Shown here: positions 1,274 to 22,983 of the stretch, piece after piece
How the letters are laid out: the number at the start of each line of letters is the position of its first letter
How positions within the stretch are numbered: the stretch's first letter is position 1
Virus record (IMG/VR): IMGVR_UViG_3300038648_000070
Coordinates: 1 to 22,983 of that record
From: a virus
Direction: 5' to 3' (one strand)
Length of the DNA stretch: 22,983 nucleotides
Translations under genes and position numbers: made by a program
The notes under the pieces: model-generated
Databases searched by the model: none
What the model was told of the DNA's origin: nothing
Seen by the model: only the letters and a program-made list of their open reading frames with translations

Positions 1274-2563
1274 CTAGGAACGATAAAAAACAAACCGCCT
1301 TTTACTACCATCTTCTACACGCAACAAACCCGTATTCTGAGCATATTCACTCTCTTTAAGATGGTTAGCCTTGGCTTGGTCCCACACTACACGCTTATGG
1401 ATGAAGACACCTTCTTGATTAATATAATGATAACCAGAAACAGCAGAAGACAACCCTGCTTCTTTGAAATTACAAGCCTTGTAAAGCGTCCCGTCGTGAC
1501 CCGCGCCTGGATCACTAAAGGCTAGAACTGCTTTAATGCCAGGGTCTAAGAGCTTGATAGCCCGACTAAGGAACCACGACCCAGTATTGGGGGGCAAACC
1601 CCCTTCTAAGGCAAATCTACGAAGCTCGGTAAAAGGGATATCACCAAAGATAGCTTTACCAGTTTCCTTGTAATTGGGTCGTCCAAAAGCAGCTACTCCG
1701 CATAGTTCTCCCGTGGGTTTGCGAAGACCTACACATCTGACGCCAACAGGAAGAGACCGAGTATAGTGCCAGAGCCCAACAAAAATGGCAGCCTCTTTCC
1801 TTGTTACTGGCATAACTTGTAGATCGTCCAAAGAAAAAACTACAGGAAGAAGTGCCTGGATTTGAGAAACTATCTCGCGACGAGAAAATGAATCAGCAAT
1901 AGTTTCTTTAAAACCCTCTATGTTGGCAGGAAGAGCCTCAGCCCATCCCTCTTGACGCCAAGAGGCCAAAACCCTGTCTTCAATTTGTTTAGCCACCTTA
2001 GCATCTACTGGTCCCCAAACACCCGTTCCACCTGGATCATAGCCCCGTTGAAAGTGAGTTTTCAATCTATTGCTGGGATCGTTAGTAATACCAATCTTCC
2101 ATGCTCCCAGGGGATGATGAATTAAATAGAGAAACCCATCAACGTCCTCTTTATAACCATAATTCGCACATCCTGGACAAGTTCCATTATGCCGTAATAC
2201 ATCATAAAGGAATCTCCGGCCTTCCCATCCACAGGAGTGACGAATAAGATAGGACTTGTCCATCCCTCGCCATTCATCCTCTAGTAATTCAGCCCCCTGG
2301 GTTAAAAGAAAAGGACGTAATACATCCAAAGAAAGAGTATGTTTTTTCTCACGTTCTTTCTGCCCACAAACTGGGCATCCCGTTCGGCTCTCTCGATAAA
2401 TGGCCTCCAAACTAGAAAGTCTAACCCAGTTCTCATGACCACAAGCTAACCGTAGATGCCATTTACGCTGAGTGCCAGGGAACGGGGCCAACGGTGTGGC
2501 TCCACAGACCAAGGCACGCTCGACGGCCTTTTCTGATGAGACGCGAAGAGGCTGCAAGGACAT
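1274..2563 (-). CDS. GIY-YIG homing endonuclease fused to Mom-like GNAT domain
   Basis: A 429-aa protein in three parts. Residues 35-135 hold two zinc-ribbon or treble-clef-like modules: C41 with C63/C66, and H109/C111 with C129/C132. Residues 143-203 form a GIY-YIG nuclease variant (GFLYLI, then WKIG, an Arg in the NRLK segment and a Glu in the QIEDRV helix). Residues 250-395 resemble the phage Mu Mom family of GNAT acyltransferases (ELRRFAL, PPNTGSWFLSRAI, FSDPGAGHDGTLYKACNF). It is a diverged relative of the gene at 16907-18640. It sits between the tail gene and the chaperone pair and has its own consensus promoter ending five bases before the ATG, so the message would be nearly leaderless. 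The lower GC by eye and the position between conserved morphogenesis genes suggest a mobile homing gene. The enzymatic role of the C-terminal domain is unknown. Confidence 0.8.
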   Translation of the reverse strand: MSLQPLRVSSEKAVERALVCGATPLAPFPGTQRKWHLRLACGHENWVRLSSLEAIYRESRTGCPVCGQKEREKKHTLSLDVLRPFLLTQGAELLEDEWRGMDKSYLIRHSCGWEGRRFLYDVLRHNGTCPGCANYGYKEDVDGFLYLIHHPLGAWKIGITNDPSNRLKTHFQRGYDPGGTGVWGPVDAKVAKQIEDRVLASWRQEGWAEALPANIEGFKETIADSFSRREIVSQIQALLPVVFSLDDLQVMPVTRKEAAIFVGLWHYTRSLPVGVRCVGLRKPTGELCGVAAFGRPNYKETGKAIFGDIPFTELRRFALEGGLPPNTGSWFLSRAIKLLDPGIKAVLAFSDPGAGHDGTLYKACNFKEAGLSSAVSGYHYINQEGVFIHKRVVWDQAKANHLKESEYAQNTGLLRVEDGSKRRFVFYRS

Positions 2564-7014: not shown

Positions 7015-8682
7015 CTATGGCGCTACTCTTCCGTTCTTAACAAACGCCTCATGCGTTATCGGGAATTGTCCTTTGAAGAACTCTTCCATTGTCTCGGCAG
7101 CTTGGGCGATTTCCCACATCGGGTGGGAAGGGTATGCAGCGTCGTCATGTTCGGTACGAAGGGAGAGAAAGTGCATGATCGAACGTGCGTTGGCTGTCGC
7201 GTACATAGCGGTGAAAGTATTGACAGGGAGGACCATCCGTGCAACTTCATTACCTATCCCGTTCTCTAGCATTGTGGTATATCTATCATAAGCATCGTAA
7301 GCGTTCGCCTCTAGGGACGTCTTCACTAATTGATATTGCTCTGCTGTCCCAGGTTCGAACTTCGGCCTAGCACTGGTGCCTGCATTAATAAGAGGGCGGT
7401 GCTTGGGGGGGATATAGAACAACGGTGGTAACACCGAATATCTGCCACTCACCTCGTTATAGCTCCACGCCACCCTGTGCCTGTGCCACTCACGGAAAAC
7501 AAAGATGGGAGCCTTAACCAAGAAAGTGAAGGCGTTGTGTTCAAAAGGCGTATTGCCACACCACATAGGCTTACCGCGGCGGCGGACGTACAAGGTGCCA
7601 TTCGGGACGCTCACACAATGCACCATGCCATCATAAGGCACTACTGTCACCTGCTTAGCCCGATCCCCGGGTGTCCATCCTATCCTAGGCTCAGAATTAC
7701 GATCACGATACACAGTCACTCTATAAAGCGGACGCTCACCGAACGCACCTTTACGCCTCACGTCAGGAGCAGTCTCGCTCGCTACCAAACCCACTTTAAG
7801 CGCCAATTCCTGCACACCATCTACTACGTGGCGGCTCACTGTTGAGCACGTTACTTTACCACTAGCGCTCACCGAACCATCACCTTGTAAGAAACCAGCC
7901 AGCAATGCCTCAAGAGTTTCAAGGTCACCATGGAGCAACAACTCCCTGGGAAAACATCTATCCCGCTCTGTGGTATACGTAGCTTGCGCCCACTCACGCA
8001 GTTTACAGGACACGTCAACCAGGAGAAAGCGCTCAGGTCCACCTGATACCACGTTGCCTATCTTCCCACCGTACTCTTTGAGCCAAGCAATCTTCCGTGG
8101 TCGTCGCAAATGAAACAAAAGATCAGCCGTACCATCCGCCACTAAGAACCCAATAATAGCCGCTTCATCGGGAGCATGGATACTACCACCCTGCCATACA
8201 CCGCCAGCAAGACGCAAACGGTGGGAGCGATCAAGCAGTTGTCGTGCTGGGTACAGCCCAAAGGGCGTTTCTTCATGACGCCGTGGCGCCGCCACCATGC
8301 GATGATCAAGAGTCACAAGCGCGTCCACAGCACTTGTCTTAACACTCAACATCGGCCCAACCCACGACTTGTGTACAACACGCTCAGCAGCCTGGTACTC
8401 CACCTCATCGGTAATTAGATTGAGTGTGACGAATGTCTCAGACCCGTCCACCTCTGGCCAATGTTTCCAGCCGTCGCTTGTCAGAACGTCCGTCTCGTCG
8501 TCATAGCATCCATGCCGATGCTTCATGAGATAGTTGATGAGTCCACCAATCTTTTCGGTGTTGATCTCATCCTCAGCACGCTCGCCTTTGGTAGACACCC
8601 AGGCTGCCCGAGCTATAGAGACGTCATCTGCCATAGAATCGATCATCTTGACGGTTATATCTGAAGTAAATTGGACTTCCAC
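7015..8682 (-). CDS. thyX: Flavin-dependent thymidylate synthase ThyX interrupted by an intein
   Basis: ThyX makes dTMP from dUMP using methylene-tetrahydrofolate, NADPH and FAD. The 555-aa product is two ThyX exteins (1-58 and 378-555, together about 236 residues, a normal ThyX size) around a 319-aa intein (59-377). The C-terminal extein starts TPFEHNAFTFLVKAPIFVFR and carries the ThyX signature RHRVAWSYNEVSGRY at about 401-415. The signature spacing looks one residue longer than the usual RHR-x7-S. The intein interrupts the conserved HG/TPFEH site, so splicing is needed for activity. The start is GTG 8682, with AAAGGAGAG two bases upstream. A terminator and a structured leader lie directly upstream. 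Placement of a nucleotide-metabolism gene among structural genes is unusual and suggests a separate insertion. Confidence 0.93.
   Translation of the reverse strand: MEVQFTSDITVKMIDSMADDVSIARAAWVSTKGERAEDEINTEKIGGLINYLMKHRHGCYDDETDVLTSDGWKHWPEVDGSETFVTLNLITDEVEYQAAERVVHKSWVGPMLSVKTSAVDALVTLDHRMVAAPRRHEETPFGLYPARQLLDRSHRLRLAGGVWQGGSIHAPDEAAIIGFLVADGTADLLFHLRRPRKIAWLKEYGGKIGNVVSGGPERFLLVDVSCKLREWAQATYTTERDRCFPRELLLHGDLETLEALLAGFLQGDGSVSASGKVTCSTVSRHVVDGVQELALKVGLVASETAPDVRRKGAFGERPLYRVTVYRDRNSEPRIGWTPGDRAKQVTVVPYDGMVHCVSVPNGTLYVRRRGKPMWCGNTPFEHNAFTFLVKAPIFVFREWHRHRVAWSYNEVSGRYSVLPPLFYIPPKHRPLINAGTSARPKFEPGTAEQYQLVKTSLEANAYDAYDRYTTMLENGIGNEVARMVLPVNTFTAMYATANARSIMHFLSLRTEHDDAAYPSHPMWEIAQAAETMEEFFKGQFPITHEAFVKNGRVAP
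7552..8508 (-). mobile_element. Intein with LAGLIDADG-type endonuclease in ThyX
   Basis: A 319-residue intein. It begins with Cys59 of the ORF (CYDDETDVLTSDGWKHW, a splicing block A) and has a block B-like LVTLDHRMVA. Two degenerate LAGLIDADG motifs are present (IIGFLVADG and LLAGFLQGDG), so the homing endonuclease looks intact. It ends ...MWCGN before Thr +1. The block G penultimate residue is Gly rather than the usual His, and a Cys precedes it; Asn is present. Missing the penultimate His is a known variation but often slows Asn cyclisation. The boundaries are set by the ThyX extein match on both sides. Confidence 0.9.
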
Positions 8683-13775: not shown

Positions 13776-14492
13776 CTAACTTGGATAAGAATAAGCTCTC
13801 GTGCCCTGGCGTGGCTTAGGAGGTTGACCACTCCCATTGGAGATCCCCTTCCTAGAACCACCCACCTTTTTGCTATAGCTATAGTTCCCTACCCGCTTAG
13901 GAATGGGAGGTTTTCCTAACAACAAACGCGCATCATTAAGAGCAAGCCTCATCACTTGAGTAACACGAGCTTCAGTACGGTGCCACATGGTAGCTATCTC
14001 CCAGTACTGATAACCCTCCAAGGCAAGAGTAAGACACTCAGCTTCTTTAGTAGGCAGTTGAGAAATAACCTCTTTCAAGAGAGTTTCTTGAGTGTCAGCT
14101 ATCTCATCAAAAGGAGTAGCAAAAGAAGCCTCAGGATGACCAACATACCAAATCTCAGATGGGTTCTTGGCCTGATGTTTTCTTAGAGACCCGGCCACAA
14201 AATCGTCTAGATAACAGACCGAAGGCTTGTAATCATCAGCCGCCCTACAAGAACTCAGCCGCCGCCACGCATCACGCGCCCCGCCTTGAACGCGAATAAA
14301 GGCCCAGCCCTGGAATGTCCCACGCCCATCCCAAGACTGGGCCGCTTGCCAGAGACCCTCTAACGCCCCACCAACAACGTCGTCAAACCACAGGCTGGCC
14401 TCTGGGAACCTTGTTAATTTCTTAGCTTCGTTGAAACCTATTTTCCGTGCCCAAGCTGCGTTTTCTTGGACTAACTGCTCAGGCTGGGACAA
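13776..14492 (-). CDS. Sigma-70-family RNA polymerase sigma factor-like protein
   Basis: A 238-aa protein with the two core sigma regions. Residues 36-80 resemble region 2 (FDDVVGGALEGLWQAAQSWD, then TFQGWAFIRVQGGARDAWRR, like the flagellar/WhiG-type core). Residues 138-192 form a region 4 helix-turn-helix (LPTKEAECLTLALEGYQYWE, then a recognition-helix-like TEARVTQVMRLALNDARLLL). A basic, Gly/Ser-rich tail follows. The TTG start at 14492 overlaps the upstream 46-aa gene by 14 bases; a later start cannot be excluded. The expected role is redirecting host RNA polymerase to phage promoters, probably late ones. Its position between accessory and head genes makes it a candidate timing switch for the morphogenesis operon. 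Confidence 0.78.
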   Translation of the reverse strand: MSQPEQLVQENAAWARKIGFNEAKKLTRFPEASLWFDDVVGGALEGLWQAAQSWDGRGTFQGWAFIRVQGGARDAWRRLSSCRAADDYKPSVCYLDDFVAGSLRKHQAKNPSEIWYVGHPEASFATPFDEIADTQETLLKEVISQLPTKEAECLTLALEGYQYWEIATMWHRTEARVTQVMRLALNDARLLLGKPPIPKRVGNYSYSKKVGGSRKGISNGSGQPPKPRQGTRAYSYPS

Positions 14493-15045: not shown

Positions 15046-16149
15046 TCAGTAGTAACGGGTAGCCTCTAGGGGCGACCCATATACCGTCTGCTTAGTGCAA
15101 ACGGCGTTGAACGGGCACTCATGGCAAGCCCAGTTCTCTTCGGAGCAGACTCGTCGGTTGAGCCAATAAAGGTTGTCGAGCACTGTTGTAGGGGTACCCG
15201 AATAGCGCGCCACCTCGGTGAGGGCGAGCATCACTGCCCGCCTGAGGACGAGAGACTCGTCAGGAGTTAGTGGCTTCCGCTCGACTAGCTTGAGGGCCAA
15301 CTCCGGCGGAGGGAGAACAAGCCCCTGACGAAGCGCTTGTTTTACCAAGTGGTAGTCAATGCCCGGTAGTGGGTCGCGATCAAACGCGGCCAGGCCCGAT
15401 CCGCTAAGCATGATGGCATTCACCATTGTGAGCTTCTGGACTGGGTCGTCAAAGGCTCTGAACTCGGAACTCAGACTGGCGAAGCGCTCCAGTGAGCCGG
15501 CAGCGGCGTCAACGACGTTCTTGAACTGGCCGTCCCAGTGCTCGATCAAGCGCTTTCCCAGGTCGCGGAGGTTCGCCACGCGATCGGCCAGAGCGGGCAC
15601 AAGCGGGAGATTACCCTCATCGTCGATGAATGCTCGCCTCATCTGGTCGTAGCGAAGTTGAGCGAGCCACTCGGCGTTGAGGGATAGATCCCCACTCTGT
15701 GTTGCCATTAGCAGGCGTCGCCACATGAACATTGAGCCGCGTTCCCTTTGACCGCCAACGACTCCTTGGGAGGGAACCAAGCGCCCACCCACAAGGGACC
15801 AGAAGCGAAAGTTGATAGCATTGCCGACGGCAAGGTACTGGCACCGGTTGTCGGGAGAAGCGTCGACATTCCAGTACAGAGGGTCATCCCATGCGGCGGG
15901 AGCCGGCGTGCCCGCCCTGAACCGCTCCTCTAGGAGCGAAGCTACCCCCCTGACCTGGTGCTCGTTCACGAGGGCGACGGCTCCGTCCATCCTGCCTAGC
16001 GTGACTAACGAGGAGACCATCGCACCAGCATAGGCACTAGGTGTGACGGCTTCCTGCTTGGTTTCGAAGTTGCAAGAAGAGCCGTCCGGTGATACCAGCT
16101 TCCAGCAACCACTACGGTAAACAACTTCATAGTCTCCGGGAGATATCAT
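15046..16149 (-). CDS. Qng1-like glycosylase-fold protein with Nth-type 4Fe-4S motif
   Basis: A 367-aa protein from ATG 16149. This start overlaps the stop of a 41-aa gene as TGATG, so I prefer it to an upstream GTG at 16194. Two segments recall the queuosine nucleotide salvage glycosylase family (Qng1, DUF2419), which has a DNA-glycosylase-like fold: CQYLAVGNAINFRFWSLVGG and FDDPVQKLTMVNAIML followed by PGIDYHLVKQALRQGLV. The C-terminus has Cys335, 342, 345 and 351, spaced C-x6-C-x2-C-x5-C, exactly the endonuclease III/MutY iron-sulfur loop. It may release a base from a nucleotide or from DNA, for instance in 7-deazaguanine metabolism. The gene is visibly GC-richer than its neighbours, suggesting recent acquisition. 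The substrate cannot be told from sequence. Confidence 0.6.
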   Translation of the reverse strand: MISPGDYEVVYRSGCWKLVSPDGSSCNFETKQEAVTPSAYAGAMVSSLVTLGRMDGAVALVNEHQVRGVASLLEERFRAGTPAPAAWDDPLYWNVDASPDNRCQYLAVGNAINFRFWSLVGGRLVPSQGVVGGQRERGSMFMWRRLLMATQSGDLSLNAEWLAQLRYDQMRRAFIDDEGNLPLVPALADRVANLRDLGKRLIEHWDGQFKNVVDAAAGSLERFASLSSEFRAFDDPVQKLTMVNAIMLSGSGLAAFDRDPLPGIDYHLVKQALRQGLVLPPPELALKLVERKPLTPDESLVLRRAVMLALTEVARYSGTPTTVLDNLYWLNRRVCSEENWACHECPFNAVCTKQTVYGSPLEATRYY

Positions 16150-16274
16150 CAGGAATGCTCGTCTTCCCAAGATTCCATCACAACCCAGCAACACCAGGGT
16201 TCAAGCTGGTCGTTTTTCTCTACCCACATCTCACAACCTGGAACACCTAGATCTTTAACATAATAACGTATCAT
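16149..16274 (-). CDS. 41-aa protein coupled on both sides
   Basis: A short gene filling the gap between the DUF3039-type gene and the glycosylase-fold gene. ATG 16274 overlaps the upstream stop as ATGA, and its TGA overlaps the next ATG as TGATG. The product is Trp/Cys/Glu-rich (MIRYYVKDLGVPGCEMWVEK at the start, a WCCW motif near residue 27). The tight overlaps on both ends are strong evidence for translation. Function unknown. Confidence 0.65.
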   Translation of the reverse strand: MIRYYVKDLGVPGCEMWVEKNDQLEPWCCWVVMESWEDEHS

Positions 16275-16574: not shown

Positions 16575-16602
16575 AGTCTAGCACGTCCAAACCCTATGTC
16601 AA
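16575..16602 (-). promoter_or_regulatory. Promoter of the DUF3039-headed accessory cluster
   Basis: TTGACA at 16602-16597, a 16-base spacer and TAGACT at 16580-16575, within the same GCTGACTTGACA element (16608-16597) seen at two other sites. The start codon follows after seven bases. The -35 overlaps the stop codon of the membrane protein gene. Confidence 0.75.
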
Positions 16603-16904
16603 GTCAGCTTCTCACGATCGAGCTTCCTCCCCAAGTAGAAGCCCACAATACTACCAGCAGCAGAACCCAACAATAACGCTGCTAACATGGCCAGAGTTTG
16701 GACCGACAGCCCGTTGCGAACCCACGAAACACCCGCAGAGACAACACAAAACGGTAGGGTCAAGTCACCCAAACCGTCCATGATACCACCCCTGAGCGCT
16801 CCCCGCCAGTTCTTGGCCCGTGCCAACAGGACCACAGAGGCGGTGTAGAACACATCCTGTAACGCCATGGAGGCGAACACAAGCACTACTAGACCGTAGT
16901 TCAT
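16599..16904 (-). CDS. Small membrane protein with about three transmembrane segments
   Basis: A 101-aa hydrophobic protein. Segments at about residues 3-27, 45-62 and 68-92 look membrane-spanning, separated by a basic loop (ARAKNWRGALRGG) and ending in a basic tail (GRKLDREKLT). It starts at ATG 16904, two bases after the endonuclease gene, without a clear Shine-Dalgarno sequence. The size and topology would suit a holin or another lysis or envelope protein, but there is no lysin gene nearby, so I leave the function open. Confidence 0.6.
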   Translation of the reverse strand: MNYGLVVLVFASMALQDVFYTASVVLLARAKNWRGALRGGIMDGLGDLTLPFCVVSAGVSWVRNGLSVQTLAMLAALLLGSAAGSIVGFYLGRKLDREKLT

Positions 16905-16906
16905 GG

Positions 16907-18640
16907 TTATTTATCGGACGGATGGAACTCCATTTCGGATTTAACTTGATGTAAGATTTTACGAGCCCGGTCAGAACGAGGAAAAGCAAAACGAAACTTA
17001 GGAGGATCGGCAATGTACATTAACCCTTCTTTATCCACCAGAGCCTTTTCAGTAAGACCTTGAGTCTTAGCCCGAGTCCAAACGGTACGCTTGTGAATGT
17101 GATTCCCCATTTTGTCGTCGTAGTGGTAACTGCCCACAGCCTCCTCACCTAAAAAAACAAAGTTGGCTGCCCGATAGAGACCTCCGGTATGGCCAGCAGC
17201 TGGATCGGCAAAAGAAATAATCATTTCATACGATGACGGCAATGACTCAATTGAACGAGACAAAAACCAAGTACCCGTATTTTTAGGTAAAAAATCCACC
17301 AAAACAAACCTTCGCAACTCTAAAGTTGGTCCCGGTTCCACACTCCCCCAACCAAACCGTCCAGCGCCAGGGTAAGATGAGCGCCCGAAGACAGCAACCC
17401 CCACCAGCATTTCCTCGTGCCAAAGCCCACTATAGAACAAGGCCGAAGGACAAGTATGTGTATAGTGATTCAAAACAACAAAATCACGTGCTTCTTTAAT
17501 ATTAACTTGACCGCACCGCAGATTACTTAAAAGAATAGGAGAAGAAATAGAAGGAAATAAAAGCTTTAATTCACACAATACTTCTTCAAGTGTAACTTCC
17601 AAGGAGGAAACAGTTTCAGTCCAGCCCTGTTCCCCTTTTAACTCAGGCACGTGCAGATGTCCTGCATCTCGCCATTGAGCTATAATTTTTGATTCGACAT
17701 CGCTGACTAATTGTCCGTCCAGCGGTCCTATCACACGGTGAACGATCGTTTCTCTTTCATTGGCAAAGAATTTCAACCGCTGTTGAATATTTTGAGATTT
17801 TCCAATTTTAAAAGCATGAAACCCAGGAAACTCAATAAGATAGAGGTACCCAGGACGATGGACATCAAATCCGCTGGTAGCACAAGAGGGACAACCCCCT
17901 CTTCCGCGTGATTGTGCTGTTTGCAAATCATTAAATGATGTTTTATGAACAGTATCACAAACAAGATGCAAATAGGGCAAAATATCATGAGTCAACCCTG
18001 GTTCAAGTCTCTTCCACTTCCAAATAGTCAACCAATCCTCAATCTCAGAATCGGATAAGGATCGTTTCTTTGAGGTACACGAAGTACATCCTTGAGACTC
18101 TAGTCTCTCAACATTTGTTAAACTCACTAACTGTTGATGTCCACATCTATGTTTACCCTGAATAGCTTGTTCTTTGACTCGCGGGATCTCTAGACATTCC
18201 CACCCCATAAGTTTAAATCTTCTTTTTAATTCAACATCAACTAGTTGGGAGCCGTGTGGTGAGCAAAACTTACAACCACTAAACCCCCGATCTTCAGTAA
18301 TATGATAGAGATACTTAAGTTGTTCTGTCCCGCAGTTTAGATGACGAGCTAAAAAAGGCTCATCCATTCGAGTGATAGAACCAGTACGCACCCACCCAGT
18401 ACCCACGAGGCGACTATCAACCACCTCTTCACTGAGATGACGTCCTTTCGTAGCACAAGCCTTACACCCTTGAGAATCCCCTTTCCGAGGTGCTTCTAAA
18501 AGGCCCAAGCGAACAGAAGCTTCAGTACCACAAACCAAGTGAACAGCCAAAAAAGGTTGATTGGTATTCCCGACCAAAGGACCAGTACGCCGCCACCCAG
18601 CGGCAGCCACGCGCTTATCTAAATCAAGAGACAAGGCCAT
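16907..18640 (-). CDS. GIY-YIG homing endonuclease with four zinc modules and Mom-like GNAT domain
   Basis: A 577-aa protein. Residues 30-255 contain four zinc-ribbon or treble-clef-like modules, each with an H/C pair and a CxxC (C37/C59/C62, C103/C123/C126, C166/C185/C188, C228/C250/C253). Residues 264-324 form a GIY-YIG nuclease variant (GYLYLI, FKIGKS, an Arg in NIQQRL, a Glu in DVESKI). Residues 372-523 match the Mom-like GNAT pattern (LELRRFVLVDFLPKNTGTWF, then IISFADPAAGHTGGLYRAAN). It shares the layout of the gene at 1274-2563 but with two more zinc modules. The gene has its own promoter directly before the ATG, is AT-rich by eye, and sits between the portal and a membrane protein gene. 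Nicking or cutting DNA at a zinc-module-defined site fits the family; the GNAT role is unknown. Confidence 0.8.
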   Translation of the reverse strand: MALSLDLDKRVAAAGWRRTGPLVGNTNQPFLAVHLVCGTEASVRLGLLEAPRKGDSQGCKACATKGRHLSEEVVDSRLVGTGWVRTGSITRMDEPFLARHLNCGTEQLKYLYHITEDRGFSGCKFCSPHGSQLVDVELKRRFKLMGWECLEIPRVKEQAIQGKHRCGHQQLVSLTNVERLESQGCTSCTSKKRSLSDSEIEDWLTIWKWKRLEPGLTHDILPYLHLVCDTVHKTSFNDLQTAQSRGRGGCPSCATSGFDVHRPGYLYLIEFPGFHAFKIGKSQNIQQRLKFFANERETIVHRVIGPLDGQLVSDVESKIIAQWRDAGHLHVPELKGEQGWTETVSSLEVTLEEVLCELKLLFPSISSPILLSNLRCGQVNIKEARDFVVLNHYTHTCPSALFYSGLWHEEMLVGVAVFGRSSYPGAGRFGWGSVEPGPTLELRRFVLVDFLPKNTGTWFLSRSIESLPSSYEMIISFADPAAGHTGGLYRAANFVFLGEEAVGSYHYDDKMGNHIHKRTVWTRAKTQGLTEKALVDKEGLMYIADPPKFRFAFPRSDRARKILHQVKSEMEFHPSDK

Positions 18641-18680: not shown

Positions 18681-20621
18681 CTACTGACCATCATTGGGTT
18701 CACTATGCTTCTCAAGCTTCGGACGGCTTCTTATCCCCTTAACAGCAGCACTACCGGGAGGCGTAGAGGTTCCCTTGTGCTCGTCCTTGGACACTCCTCT
18801 AGCAGGAGGTTGACCAGCTCCACGAGCCTTTCCACCATTGCCAGCTGCTCCATGGTTGCCTCCAGCAGCCCTACCTGCCCTCTTAGGACTATTCGCCGCT
18901 CCTGGTGCTGGCCCACCGGGTTTAGGTGCCGTTGAATTGGCTGGAGTTGGAGCCCCTGGCGCACCAGGAGGCGGCGGTGGTGGCATGAAGTACTTGTCGT
19001 ACTTCTGCATTTCCATCTTGCGAAGCCGTGCCTCGTCAGCCTCGTCGTAGTCCACCTCGGAGAGAATGGACTTACGGGAAAGGTCATCACGGTCGCGAAG
19101 ATCAAGTAGATAAGTTGCGAGGCTAGGATCGAAATCAAGCGCAATACGCTTGGGGTGGAACGCCATGGAAGGAAGACAAGTCAAAGAATTGTTCAACTCA
19201 AAGATAGGCATAAAGATGTTATTCATCACGTCATCCTTCTGCATATCCCTACGGGACTCAAGACCTCTGGCCACCACACGGGCCAACTTAAGACTGTCGT
19301 CTCTCCCTGCGTGGGTCGTGGTGAACATCCCATACAAGGTCCCTTGAATGCCAAGATTCAAGACCCCATAGCGCCCCTCGTCAATGATGTGTTCCGTCTT
19401 GGGAGTGATAATCTCCACCTTGAGGCGGTGGTCACCTACCAAGACGGGAGAGGCCCCCATGGTTGAGGCCTGGGCCTGCAAGTAGTTGATTTCGTACTGC
19501 GAAGCAGGGTGATGATCGGTACCCTTGGTAATAAGAACTATGAACTGGGCAATCCCGATTAGAGCAGAACGATCAGCCGCCTTAAGCTGCCTCTTTAGGT
19601 CCAGTAGCTCGAAAACCCTTCTCATGGGAACAGGAGCAAACCTGGCATAGTCAGGACGCGTTAGAGTGGTACGCCAAACGTATTTCGGGTTCAACACATA
19701 CAAACGGTTCGGGTCTACACTATACCCACCGCCGCCGATGTTCACCAATTCTTTGCGGTCACGATAGTCGGGCTCGTACTTAGCCACGATAAGGCGCTGA
19801 ATGATAGGATCTGCACCTGAGGCATCGTCACCCAAAAGCCAAGAATCTATAACGTCTTTTTCGGTGGGATCAGCAACATAGGTAAGGGTCTCCTTGCCGA
19901 AGAGGAAGTTCCCTACAGGGATAACCTTGAACGGGTCAAGAACTGTCAAGCCCAGAGGAACGGTAAGGTTATTGAAAGCCTTCTTCTTCTTGACCCCGGT
20001 TTCAGTGGACTTACCTTGGACTTTGTACGACTTTGTTCCATACCAAGCAGCAACATAAGCCTGACCCGTTAAAGCTAACTCCCGCCAGACCTTCCGCATG
20101 TGAGTAGATAGATGGATATCATAAGCTATCTGGCCCCAGATGTTCTCTTCGTCCTCGTCGTCGCACTCTATCTTGATCTGGCCAAAGGCAAGAGCCTCGG
20201 AAGAAGCCAAGTAAGCTCCCACCATATCATCATCAGCAGCGTTGTAAGCAGCAGCTAGTTGTTCAAAGAAAGAGTCGTCAACAACGAACAAATCACGATC
20301 AAACAAAGTCCCTTCACGCCGCTGCCCCTGGCGCCCACCCTGCACGCTGTGCGTCCATGTAACCATGGCAGCCATGAGAGGCTTGACCGAGTCGTCCATG
20401 AACTGGCCCCGCATAACATCTCCAGTGGGGATGCCAGAAGTGTTGATAATGGCAGCTGCAGTCTCACCGTCAGGGGATTGCCAGATCTCCATACCCGAAG
20501 GATCTACTTCCACCTGAGCCGAAAGAACGCCTTTAGGCTGCTTGGGAGCAGACCGCGGTGTACGCTTGCGCGTAGGGACAGCGCGTCCCATAGCCGTCTG
20601 GGAAGGGATCTGATCAGTCAT
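18681..20621 (-). CDS. Portal protein
   Basis: A 646-aa protein placed two genes after the large terminase. The portal is the dodecameric ring at one capsid vertex through which DNA is packaged and ejected. The central region (about 100-520) has portal-like features: an acidic N-terminal wing (FFEQLAAAYNAADDDMVGAY), the stem/helix area (RVFELLDLKRQLKAADRSAL) and a crown-like helical end (ARVVARGLESRRDMQKDDVM). The C-terminal 110 residues are low-complexity Pro/Gly/Ala with a PPPPPPG run at about residue 550, a probable disordered extension. It starts at ATG 20621, sharing one base with the upstream stop (TAATG). Confidence 0.82.
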   Translation of the reverse strand: MTDQIPSQTAMGRAVPTRKRTPRSAPKQPKGVLSAQVEVDPSGMEIWQSPDGETAAAIINTSGIPTGDVMRGQFMDDSVKPLMAAMVTWTHSVQGGRQGQRREGTLFDRDLFVVDDSFFEQLAAAYNAADDDMVGAYLASSEALAFGQIKIECDDEDEENIWGQIAYDIHLSTHMRKVWRELALTGQAYVAAWYGTKSYKVQGKSTETGVKKKKAFNNLTVPLGLTVLDPFKVIPVGNFLFGKETLTYVADPTEKDVIDSWLLGDDASGADPIIQRLIVAKYEPDYRDRKELVNIGGGGYSVDPNRLYVLNPKYVWRTTLTRPDYARFAPVPMRRVFELLDLKRQLKAADRSALIGIAQFIVLITKGTDHHPASQYEINYLQAQASTMGASPVLVGDHRLKVEIITPKTEHIIDEGRYGVLNLGIQGTLYGMFTTTHAGRDDSLKLARVVARGLESRRDMQKDDVMNNIFMPIFELNNSLTCLPSMAFHPKRIALDFDPSLATYLLDLRDRDDLSRKSILSEVDYDEADEARLRKMEMQKYDKYFMPPPPPPGAPGAPTPANSTAPKPGGPAPGAANSPKRAGRAAGGNHGAAGNGGKARGAGQPPARGVSKDEHKGTSTPPGSAAVKGIRSRPKLEKHSEPNDGQ

Positions 20622-21012: not shown

Positions 21013-21279
21013 TTACATACCCCCTATAAATCCGTCTAGAACGTTCTCACTTCGCTGTTCATATTTCCCATTTGGCTGTTGCTTAACTCTACCAACTTCT
21101 ACTGCAGCCATAAAGTCAGCCATCATCACGATATCCTGATCACTTAATCTGTGCCAAGGAGCCACCTGGGCAGCCCAAGCGCCCACGCGAGGGTCCAAAG
21201 ATTTGGCGATTTTGTGTACCATCTTGAACCGTTGGTTCCAGGCTTCTCGTGCTGCGTCCCATTGTGCGTCTCTTACCAC
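21013..21279 (-). CDS. Small protein coupled to the large terminase gene
   Basis: An 88-aa protein whose start overlaps the end of the terminase gene by seven bases. It is Trp- and Met-rich and helical in the first two thirds (WDAAREAWNQRFKMVHKIAK; HRLSDQDIVMMADFMAAVEV) with a polar tail. No family is recognised. Actinophages often have such short genes between terminase and portal. Confidence 0.55.
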   Translation of the reverse strand: MVRDAQWDAAREAWNQRFKMVHKIAKSLDPRVGAWAAQVAPWHRLSDQDIVMMADFMAAVEVGRVKQQPNGKYEQRSENVLDGFIGGM

Positions 21280-22983
21280 CCTGACCCCTGCCTTCCACCG
21301 AGACCCTGTTTCATCCCATTATTAGGATCGAACTGCTGGAAGATCCCCCCTATATTATGAACGTTAAACACGTCCAGAACTGGATCTGGCGCTGGTTCAG
21401 ATTGAGCCAATAATTCTTCAATAGAGCGCTGCTTCTGAGCCAAGGCTGCCATTCTAGCCGCATCGAGTGTATGAAAGTCGCCTTGACTGAACAATCGCCT
21501 TCTACCATAAGCATCAGTAGTCATTTTAGAGAAGTGCCAGGTTTGTGCATTCCAGGTACTGATTAACTCGCGATCCCACGGAAGCCACATACGTTCAGTG
21601 TCCACTAATTCTCTTAGAGCATCTGTAGAAACCTCCACAACTCTTCGGTATATACCAGCCTCTTTAGCTTGCTCATCTATAGTCATTCCTGGTAATAGTT
21701 CTTGTGCCGGGTCTATTTCCACAAGAACGGTTTCCGAGAAATTGTAACCTTTTATGACTTTCACCGCCGCTCTAGCCCTGGCCGAGTTAGTCTCGTTAGC
21801 GTTATTCTCCAACTGACGTGTGATGTCCTGATAGAGAGGGAGGCCGTTCCCTGTTTTGTCTATACCAAACGCTTGGATGGCGGGACTATAAAAGTCTATA
21901 AGATGAAGCACCACCTCCATCTGGTCGGGAGCGGGGATATTCTGAAGAGATATTCTGGCTATAAGCTTAAACCGACGATCTCCGGGAGCAGGGAAAGCCT
22001 TTTCGGGATGATCTTTTGTAGCCTTGGCATACCTGGCCTCAGCCGCAGTAGGTAAGTAATCAGCAAAGACTAAAATTTCAGAAGGATCATTGATATACCC
22101 AACGTCCATCCCAATATAAATCATCGGGTACTTCTTGTGAGATTCTGGCAAGTTTATGAAGTCCAGAATCGAAGAGTGATCACGGTCCATGTCAGCATCG
22201 CGTATCGTAACGTGAACGTATTCCGCGGAGTTATAATCCGATCCAGGGTCATCATCCGTACATTTAATGAGACGGTGAAGAATAAAAATAACGTTCTCTG
22301 CAGGCCCCGGCAGTCCTAAAACATTACGCCCATAGTCAGGAGCATCCCTAGAGCCATATTTCTCTATCTTGGACTGGCGTTCCTTGTCTGTCCAGTCAGG
22401 TCTACATTGAGCAACTATTCTATGTAACTCCCAGTCGGTATCACTTTTCTTGGGAGTAGCCCGCAAAGGGGGAGTCTCTACAGCACCCTTCGTGACATCG
22501 TAGAACCATCCACCGACGCCATTCACAACACCATGGACTCTCCATTGGGTTCCTTCCCCTGTGCAAGTTTCAATTAATTCGTAATATCCCTGTTGAGGAT
22601 AATCTTGGCTGTTGCTGCAATGGATTCCATCGATTAGGTAGGAATGGTCCTCCTCAACGGTCAGGTCATAAAGCTCCTTTTCCTCACCGGTTTCCGTAAC
22701 CTTACGCACCGCCGTATAACGATACTGTTGATTGTGGGTAAACCCCTGACCTTTTGTATTACCAACGATCTGATAAAACCCCGTCGGTTTAACTTCACGC
22801 CCTCGGATTACTGATGGCACCTTCCTGGGGGGGTTCCAATACCATGAAACAGAGTAACCCAAACCCAAAGCAAGAAGTCGCGTTGAAACAGATAACTTCT
22901 TAGAAACCGTCGTTAACTTCCAACGTCCAGCCTCATAACGTTCATCGGGATCTTCAAATCCATCGCCGTATACCAAACCCTCC
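21273..22983 (-). CDS. Terminase large subunit, intein-containing, 5' part outside the window
   Basis: The frame is open to the window edge; the TTG near 22976 is not a real start. The visible product is the C-terminal part of an intein (to about 22611) followed by 445 residues of TerL. The extein begins SQDYPQQGYYELIE and carries the RNase H-like nuclease: Asp in YIGMDVGYINDPSEILVFA, Asp in QAFGIDKTGNGLPLY and Asp in GDFHTLDAARMAAL. This nuclease cuts concatemers at the start and end of packaging. The ATPase half (Walker A and B) should lie upstream of the window. The enzyme works with the portal encoded two genes downstream. The end overlaps the 88-aa gene by seven bases. Confidence 0.9.
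   Translation of the reverse strand, partial: EGLVYGDGFEDPDERYEAGRWKLTTVSKKLSVSTRLLALGLGYSVSWYWNPPRKVPSVIRGREVKPTGFYQIVGNTKGQGFTHNQQYRYTAVRKVTETGEEKELYDLTVEEDHSYLIDGIHCSNSQDYPQQGYYELIETCTGEGTQWRVHGVVNGVGGWFYDVTKGAVETPPLRATPKKSDTDWELHRIVAQCRPDWTDKERQSKIEKYGSRDAPDYGRNVLGLPGPAENVIFILHRLIKCTDDDPGSDYNSAEYVHVTIRDADMDRDHSSILDFINLPESHKKYPMIYIGMDVGYINDPSEILVFADYLPTAAEARYAKATKDHPEKAFPAPGDRRFKLIARISLQNIPAPDQMEVVLHLIDFYSPAIQAFGIDKTGNGLPLYQDITRQLENNANETNSARARAAVKVIKGYNFSETVLVEIDPAQELLPGMTIDEQAKEAGIYRRVVEVSTDALRELVDTERMWLPWDRELISTWNAQTWHFSKMTTDAYGRRRLFSQGDFHTLDAARMAALAQKQRSIEELLAQSEPAPDPVLDVFNVHNIGGIFQQFDPNNGMKQGLGGRQGSGW
22611..22983 (-). mobile_element. C-terminal part of an intein in the large terminase
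   Basis: About 124 codons of intein are visible. The end is a classic block F/G, ELYDLTVEEDHSYLIDGIHC then SN, followed by Ser +1 of the extein. Near the window edge the motif GLVYGDGF looks like a degenerate LAGLIDADG repeat, so the intein probably carries or carried a homing endonuclease. Unlike the ThyX intein, the residue before the terminal Asn is Ser rather than Gly, again not the usual His. The N-terminal part is outside the window. Confidence 0.88.

Follow-up and report, generated by a model that had tools for sequence, protein, structure and literature searches.

The stretch of viral DNA analysed here, referred to as the window, comprises 22,983 nucleotides of the IMG/VR record IMGVR_UViG_3300038648_000070. 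On its minus strand lies a gene for a protein of 577 aa (P0001), present as a preliminary description of this DNA had given it. In the predicted protein, zinc-type modules precede a GIY-YIG nuclease domain and a C-terminal domain of the Mom family. A second fusion gene (P0002), absent from the preliminary description, is also encoded in the window. The two genes, their domains and the neighbours of P0001 are as follows.

16907..18640, minus strand: P0001, zinc-module / GIY-YIG / Mom fusion gene, 577 aa (profile searches, structure model)
18455..18541, minus strand: P0001 putative zinc-type module 1, HxxC...CxxC, residues 34-62 (sequence pattern)
18263..18343, minus strand: P0001 putative zinc-type module 2, residues 100-126 (sequence pattern)
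18077..18151, minus strand: P0001 putative zinc-type module 3, residues 164-188 (sequence pattern)
17882..17968, minus strand: P0001 putative zinc-type module 4, residues 225-253 (sequence pattern)
17666..17851, minus strand: P0001 GIY-YIG (T5orf172-like) nuclease domain, residues ~264-325 (phrog_681, motif, model)
16949..17521, minus strand: P0001 Mom domain (PF25680), residues 374-564 (Pfam, phrog, fold)
18681..20621, minus strand: portal-position gene, upstream neighbour of P0001 (comparison with relatives)
16599..16904, minus strand: small membrane (holin-like) gene, downstream neighbour of P0001 (comparison with relatives)
1274..2563, minus strand: P0002, second fusion gene, 429 aa, with two zinc-type modules, GIY-YIG and Mom (Pfam, alignment, pattern)
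1955..2137, minus strand: P0002 GIY-YIG domain (motif common to P0001)
1286..1822, minus strand: P0002 Mom domain, with H266, Y267, E313, R316, S329, D351, G358, Y361 and N365 (alignment)

The four zinc modules noted earlier in P0001 are recovered as four H-x(1-2)-C ... C-x2-C modules; they are putative, being seen as a sequence pattern in a region where the AF2 model is poor. An alignment of P0002 with P0001 over 404 aa shows 35% identity. The presence of such a fusion in the same window, the occurrence of both genes in a second contig and related fusions elsewhere rule out that P0001 was joined by chance or misassembly.

Nuclease and Mom domains

The central domain of P0001, which the preliminary description had read as a GIY-YIG variant, matched phrog_681 'endonuclease' in a profile search (E = 1e-20), while its match to Pfam T5orf172 was weak and below the cut-off (E = 0.17). 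P0001 and P0002 have a GIY-YIG motif in common, represented in P0001 by G264, Y267, KIG at 278-280, R288 and E316. A separate AF2 model of the P0001 domain (pLDDT 73) gave modest fold matches (best Z = 7.1), the leading ones being established nucleases of the GIY-YIG type, first HIGLE and Slx1 and then I-TevI and UvrC. By its modelled fold and its Y, KIG, R and E motif, the domain is a predicted nuclease of the GIY-YIG / T5orf172 type.

The Mom protein of phage Mu is a GNAT-fold enzyme that modifies adenine in DNA, and it modifies the Mu genome against restriction. Residues 374-564 of P0001 matched the Pfam family Mom, PF25680, with E = 7.6e-30 and 104.5 bits (cut-off 27.1), and the corresponding match of P0002 reached E = 3e-21 and 76.3 bits. 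P0001 further matched phrog_1384, Mom-like (E = 2e-36), and, in a sequence search with phmmer, Mu Mom of the solved structure 8bv8 (E = 6e-10). The C-terminal pattern of the type LRRF...SFADPxxGHxGxxYxAxNF, from which a Mom-like GNAT domain had been proposed, is real in P0001. Structure prediction against Mu Mom, the check suggested at the time, returned a GNAT fold (pLDDT mostly >90) whose best match was 8bv8 itself (Z = 18.5, 174 residues, 25% identity), the next GNAT following at Z = 13.3. On this predicted structure, the family score and the active-site residues, the P0001 C-terminus is a genuine member of the Mom family of GNATs.

The residues invariant in standalone Mom proteins (Mu H58, Y59, E108, R111, D149, G156 and Y159, 241-aa numbering) are retained in P0001, in P0002 and in 16 of 16 fused relatives (see below), despite an overall identity of 20-30%. 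Neither outcome that the preliminary description had named as speaking against a Mom domain was therefore observed: the model has a GNAT fold, and the residues needed for Mom activity are not missing from all relatives. At the conserved positions, P0001 has H392, Y393, E441, R444, T457, D479, G486, Y489 and N493. Asn occupies the position of Mu N163 in P0001, in P0002 and in 12 of the 16 fused relatives, and the position of Mu S124 is Ser or Thr throughout the fused set (T457 in P0001, S329 in P0002). According to the title of PDB entry 8bv8, the S124A mutant of Mu Mom is inactive; that the other residues matter is suggested by their conservation. Because the P0001 domain belongs to this family and its active site looks intact, adenine modification in DNA of the Mu Mom type is its most likely activity.

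A degenerate form of the domain occurs elsewhere. In the alignment, the Tyr, Glu and Asn are missing from the Mom-like domain of phage PA5oct, and a putative homing endonuclease of Campylobacter phage PC5 (L184, 784-2259) ends in a weak, degenerate Mom-like match; its Hef-like class is present in several copies per Campylobacter phage genome. The Mom fold can thus persist without a full active site, since Hef-like endonucleases (PA5oct, PC5) keep it in degenerate form.

Empty sites and a tract of low divergence

The portal-position gene of the window is 79% identical to its counterparts in the IMG/VR contigs G002 and G004 and 44% identical to those in G005 and G006. In G002 and G004, the site of P0001 is empty: the end of the portal ORF (at L022:9842 in G002) is also the start of the next small membrane-protein gene, the counterpart of the small holin-like gene in relatives being matched by eye (length, position and hydrophobic pattern) with no significant BLAST score. 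The site of P0002 is empty in G004 (L030), where the flanking homologs lie about 165 bp apart with no insert, and likewise in the more distant L034, where they lie 100 bp apart. No Mom match was found in G002-G006, records which may be fragments. P0001 and P0002 are thus intergenic genes missing from their sites in relatives, as is the case for free-standing homing endonucleases.

A near-identical contig, G001, carries both P0001 and P0002, and comparison of the window with this contig revealed a tract of low divergence centred on P0001:

16824..19314: low-divergence tract relative to G001, 6 differences in about 2.5 kb

Within P0001 there were 3 differences in 1734 bases, of which 1 was synonymous (dS 0.0025), against 21 synonymous differences expected from the background dS of 0.053 (binomial p = 4e-8). 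The third of the portal gene that adjoins P0001 had a dS of 0.0067, compared with 0.082 for the remainder of that gene. On the other side of P0001, the small gene had a dS of 0.19, the last difference before P0001 being at 16824; the segment 16501-17000 alone held 17 differences, all at or before this position. For P0002, dS was 0.017 (p = 0.003), with 0.0135 for its neighbour and 0.08 for the next gene. The major-head-like gene also had a low dS (0.017). This signal comes from one genome pair of metagenomic contigs.

The low-dS tract around P0001 is as expected for homing with co-conversion of flanks, the signal at P0002 being weaker. Co-conversion during homing is known for free-standing endonucleases of T4-like phages (PMC2988022). 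Recombination unrelated to homing offers a partial alternative for the low dS, because the major-head-like gene is low as well. Together, the empty sites in relatives and the low-divergence tract lend support to the homing system that the preliminary description had envisaged.

Other elements of the window and its relatives also vary. A ThyX gene (7015-8682) contains an intein bearing LAGLIDADG domains (Pfam; insert at about 7552-8510), and this segment is absent from the near-identical G001, so that this mobile element is polymorphic too. At the start of the ORF for the terminase large subunit (21273-22976) lies the C-terminal portion of a splicing domain of an intein, and a stretch similar to the ThyX intein also interrupts the terminase region of the distant relatives G005 and G006. 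Also absent from G001 are the segment 14720-16153, with a queuosine-salvage-like ORF (15046-16194; PF10343, E = 9e-11), and the segment 13809-14483 of a sigma-70-like ORF (13776-14492; region 2, E = 2e-7). G002 and G004 encode a DNA methyltransferase of 581 aa (N6_N4_Mtase, E = 2e-17) just after the portal-adjacent small gene (L022, 10202-11947), where the window has none.

Fused relatives and known systems

Two DNA patterns were used to search for relatives. The first, a Mom motif ([FY][AS]DPxxGHxGxxYxAxN) built without use of fusions, found at least 120 stretches in a scan of IMG/VR; among the matches listed, clear nuclease fusions were present in 2 of 122 ORFs, one with an HNH nuclease (L073) and one with a REase-fold, Vsr-like nuclease (L115). 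The second, the signature YxYx4Gxx[IM]HK[KR]...AK, was derived from these two fusions together with P0001 and P0002; its retrieval is hence biased towards fusions, and it found 29 stretches in viral contigs and 1 in bacterial and archaeal genomes totalling 257 billion bases. Among the signature matches, all complete ORFs of normal length were nuclease-Mom fusions, the others being fragments cut by contig ends and one remnant of 81 codons (L172). The nuclease partners were mostly of the REase fold (MTES_1575 or Vsr in Pfam), with two HNH or Endo VII-like nucleases and the GIY-YIG pair of the window. Pfam Mom was matched by 16 of 16 fused relatives and phrog_3339, 'homing endonuclease', by 14 of 16.

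In 14 of the parent records, each of the 26 Mom matches lay within an open frame 381 aa long or longer, and one genome of 256 kb held seven Mom matches, five of them over the cut-off. Several fused copies per genome are a pattern of proliferating homing genes. The fused genes adjoin those for portal, terminase, major head, tail sheath, polymerase or prohead protease; such neighbourhoods are usual for free-standing endonucleases (PMC10448857; PMC2988022).

In a maximum-likelihood tree built from 74 Mom domains, a single branch (bootstrap 95, SH-aLRT 89) set the fused domains apart from the rest, with one change between the fused and the standalone state, for a fused set that was fetched with the fusion-derived pattern and may not sample all fusions. 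The tree was rebuilt without the long branches of a quick tree (PA5oct and others), which left the split unchanged. One Mom clade was thus retained as the nuclease fused to it switched between three unrelated folds (REase-fold, HNH and GIY-YIG).

Among 50,697 phage records, none matched at least 80% of P0001 or P0002, and those phage tblastn matches to the two proteins that were inspected were standalone Mom genes, not fusions. A literature search found nothing specific on Mom with GIY-YIG or homing. In Geobacillus phage PK3.6, the genes gp43 and gp44 (L183, 1848-3030), encoding an HNH endonuclease and a standalone Mom, overlap by ~60 bases; such an unfused pair is a possible earlier state of an HNH-Mom fusion as in L073. 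A contig filed as a Lokiarchaeota MAG, perhaps a virus or a misbinned phage, has a nuclease-Mom fusion beside a gene for a Hef-like homing endonuclease (L182, 496-4895; phrog_559, E = 2e-111).

The fusion of a nuclease with Mom is itself already known, Mom-REase fusions having been noted in 2021 in jumbo phages such as PA5oct (PMC7824862). These likewise join a nuclease and a Mom-like domain in one chain and occur several times per jumbo phage genome, but their nuclease is of the REase fold, the PA5oct copy has the degenerate Mom active site described above, and they were interpreted as restriction-modification, not homing (PMC7824862). The free-standing T5orf172 / GIY-YIG endonucleases with repeated zinc fingers (PMC10448857; phrog_681) resemble P0001 and P0002 in their zinc array, T5orf172-like nuclease and intergenic position beside head and packaging genes, but differ in that P0001 and P0002 have an extra C-terminal Mom domain; Mom is not mentioned in the main text of PMC10448857. 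Hef-like homing endonucleases (phrog_3339, phrog_559) have a homologous C-terminal domain in a homing nuclease, with a degenerate Mom active site and another nuclease fold. With Mu Mom (PF25680; 8bv8), the fused domains have the fold, the invariant residues and Ser/Thr at the S124 position in common; unlike Mu Mom, which is encoded on its own by a late gene that Com controls, they form the C-terminus of a mobile nuclease and carry a signature of their own (YxYx4Gxx[IM]HK[KR]...AK).

Probable homing and a proposed role of the Mom domain

We consider the best explanation of P0001, at a probability of roughly 45%, to be a free-standing phage homing endonuclease with a competent adenine-modifying Mom domain, the likeliest use of which is self-protection. 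From the architecture, the empty sites, the low-divergence tract, the residue conservation and the single clade, we infer the following course of cleavage, modification and protection. Target recognition would fall to the N-terminal zinc modules, and the T5orf172-like GIY-YIG domain would cleave the allele that lacks the gene in a co-infecting phage. Once the break is repaired with the carrier genome as template, the P0001 gene would have been copied together with its flanks. The Mom domain would modify adenine in DNA as Mu Mom does, and this mark on sites in the carrier's own DNA may block cutting. The carrier would need such protection because the cleavage sites of free-standing endonucleases lie hundreds or thousands of bases away from where the gene is inserted (PMC2988022), so that the insertion itself leaves the target intact. 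We put forward more tentatively that P0001 is self-protecting in this full sense, one mobile chain cutting unmarked copies of its target and marking its own with a Mom-type adenine modification. Against the best explanation stand the degenerate Mom-like domain of Hef-like endonucleases, the Thr at the S124 position of P0001, a possible part of general recombination in the low dS and the poor model of the N-terminal array.

The first of these points is also the basis of an alternative that seems unlikely to us, namely a homing endonuclease in which the Mom-fold domain has lost its modifying activity and is a DNA-binding or structural module only. The Hef-like endonucleases, with PA5oct as an example, indicate that a full active site is dispensable in this class. 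However, the H, Y, E, R, D, G and Y and a Ser/Thr at S124 are present in all 16 fused relatives as well as in P0001 and P0002, and binding alone would not require the retention of an active site at such low overall identity. A GNAT fold serving as a DNA-reading module is less likely for P0001 because its active site is kept; among the Hef-like relatives with their degenerate domain, this reading may apply.

We regard as still less likely a one-chain restriction-modification or anti-restriction system, in which Mom would mark the phage genome broadly and the nuclease would attack unmodified host or rival DNA. Such a system would accord with the presence of both predicted activities in one chain, with the protection of the Mu genome by its own Mom against restriction and with the role already predicted for the Mom-REase fusions of jumbo phages (PMC7824862). 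Yet the genes behave as mobile elements, with empty sites, a low-divergence tract, dispersed copies per genome and swapped nucleases; the Mom matches in the 14 records all lie inside long fused frames; and the zinc or repeat arrays would fit targets that are rare better than an action on the whole genome. Homing is favoured by the mobility of the genes, their multiplicity and their specific targeting arrays, and homing and restriction-modification are mutually compatible. Finally, Mom could be an anti-restriction cargo, acquired by chance by an ordinary homing endonuclease and helping the host phage in a manner unrelated to homing. Fusion could indeed follow neighbourhood, given the adjacent unfused HNH and Mom genes of PK3.6 (gp43/gp44), but one Mom clade stayed fused across three nuclease folds, which suggests that the domain matters to the mobile gene; we consider a mere cargo improbable.

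That a carrier genome is spared by its own free-standing endonuclease is usually explained by differences in the target sequence. With a Mom domain built in, there would be a direct answer to how the carrier escapes an endonuclease that cuts away from its own gene. P0001 suggests a selfish gene able both to cut DNA and to mark DNA as its own; if true, self-protection would place a restriction-modification-like logic inside a selfish gene, which could then spread into genomes with a target identical to its own and exclude rivals. Of particular interest is why a mobile nuclease would retain its modifying domain when the nuclease fold is exchanged. The data further suggest common ancestry of phage homing endonucleases of the large Hef-like class with proteins bearing a DNA-modifying domain, and they make the fused Mom genes candidates for new sequence-targeted adenine modification enzymes.
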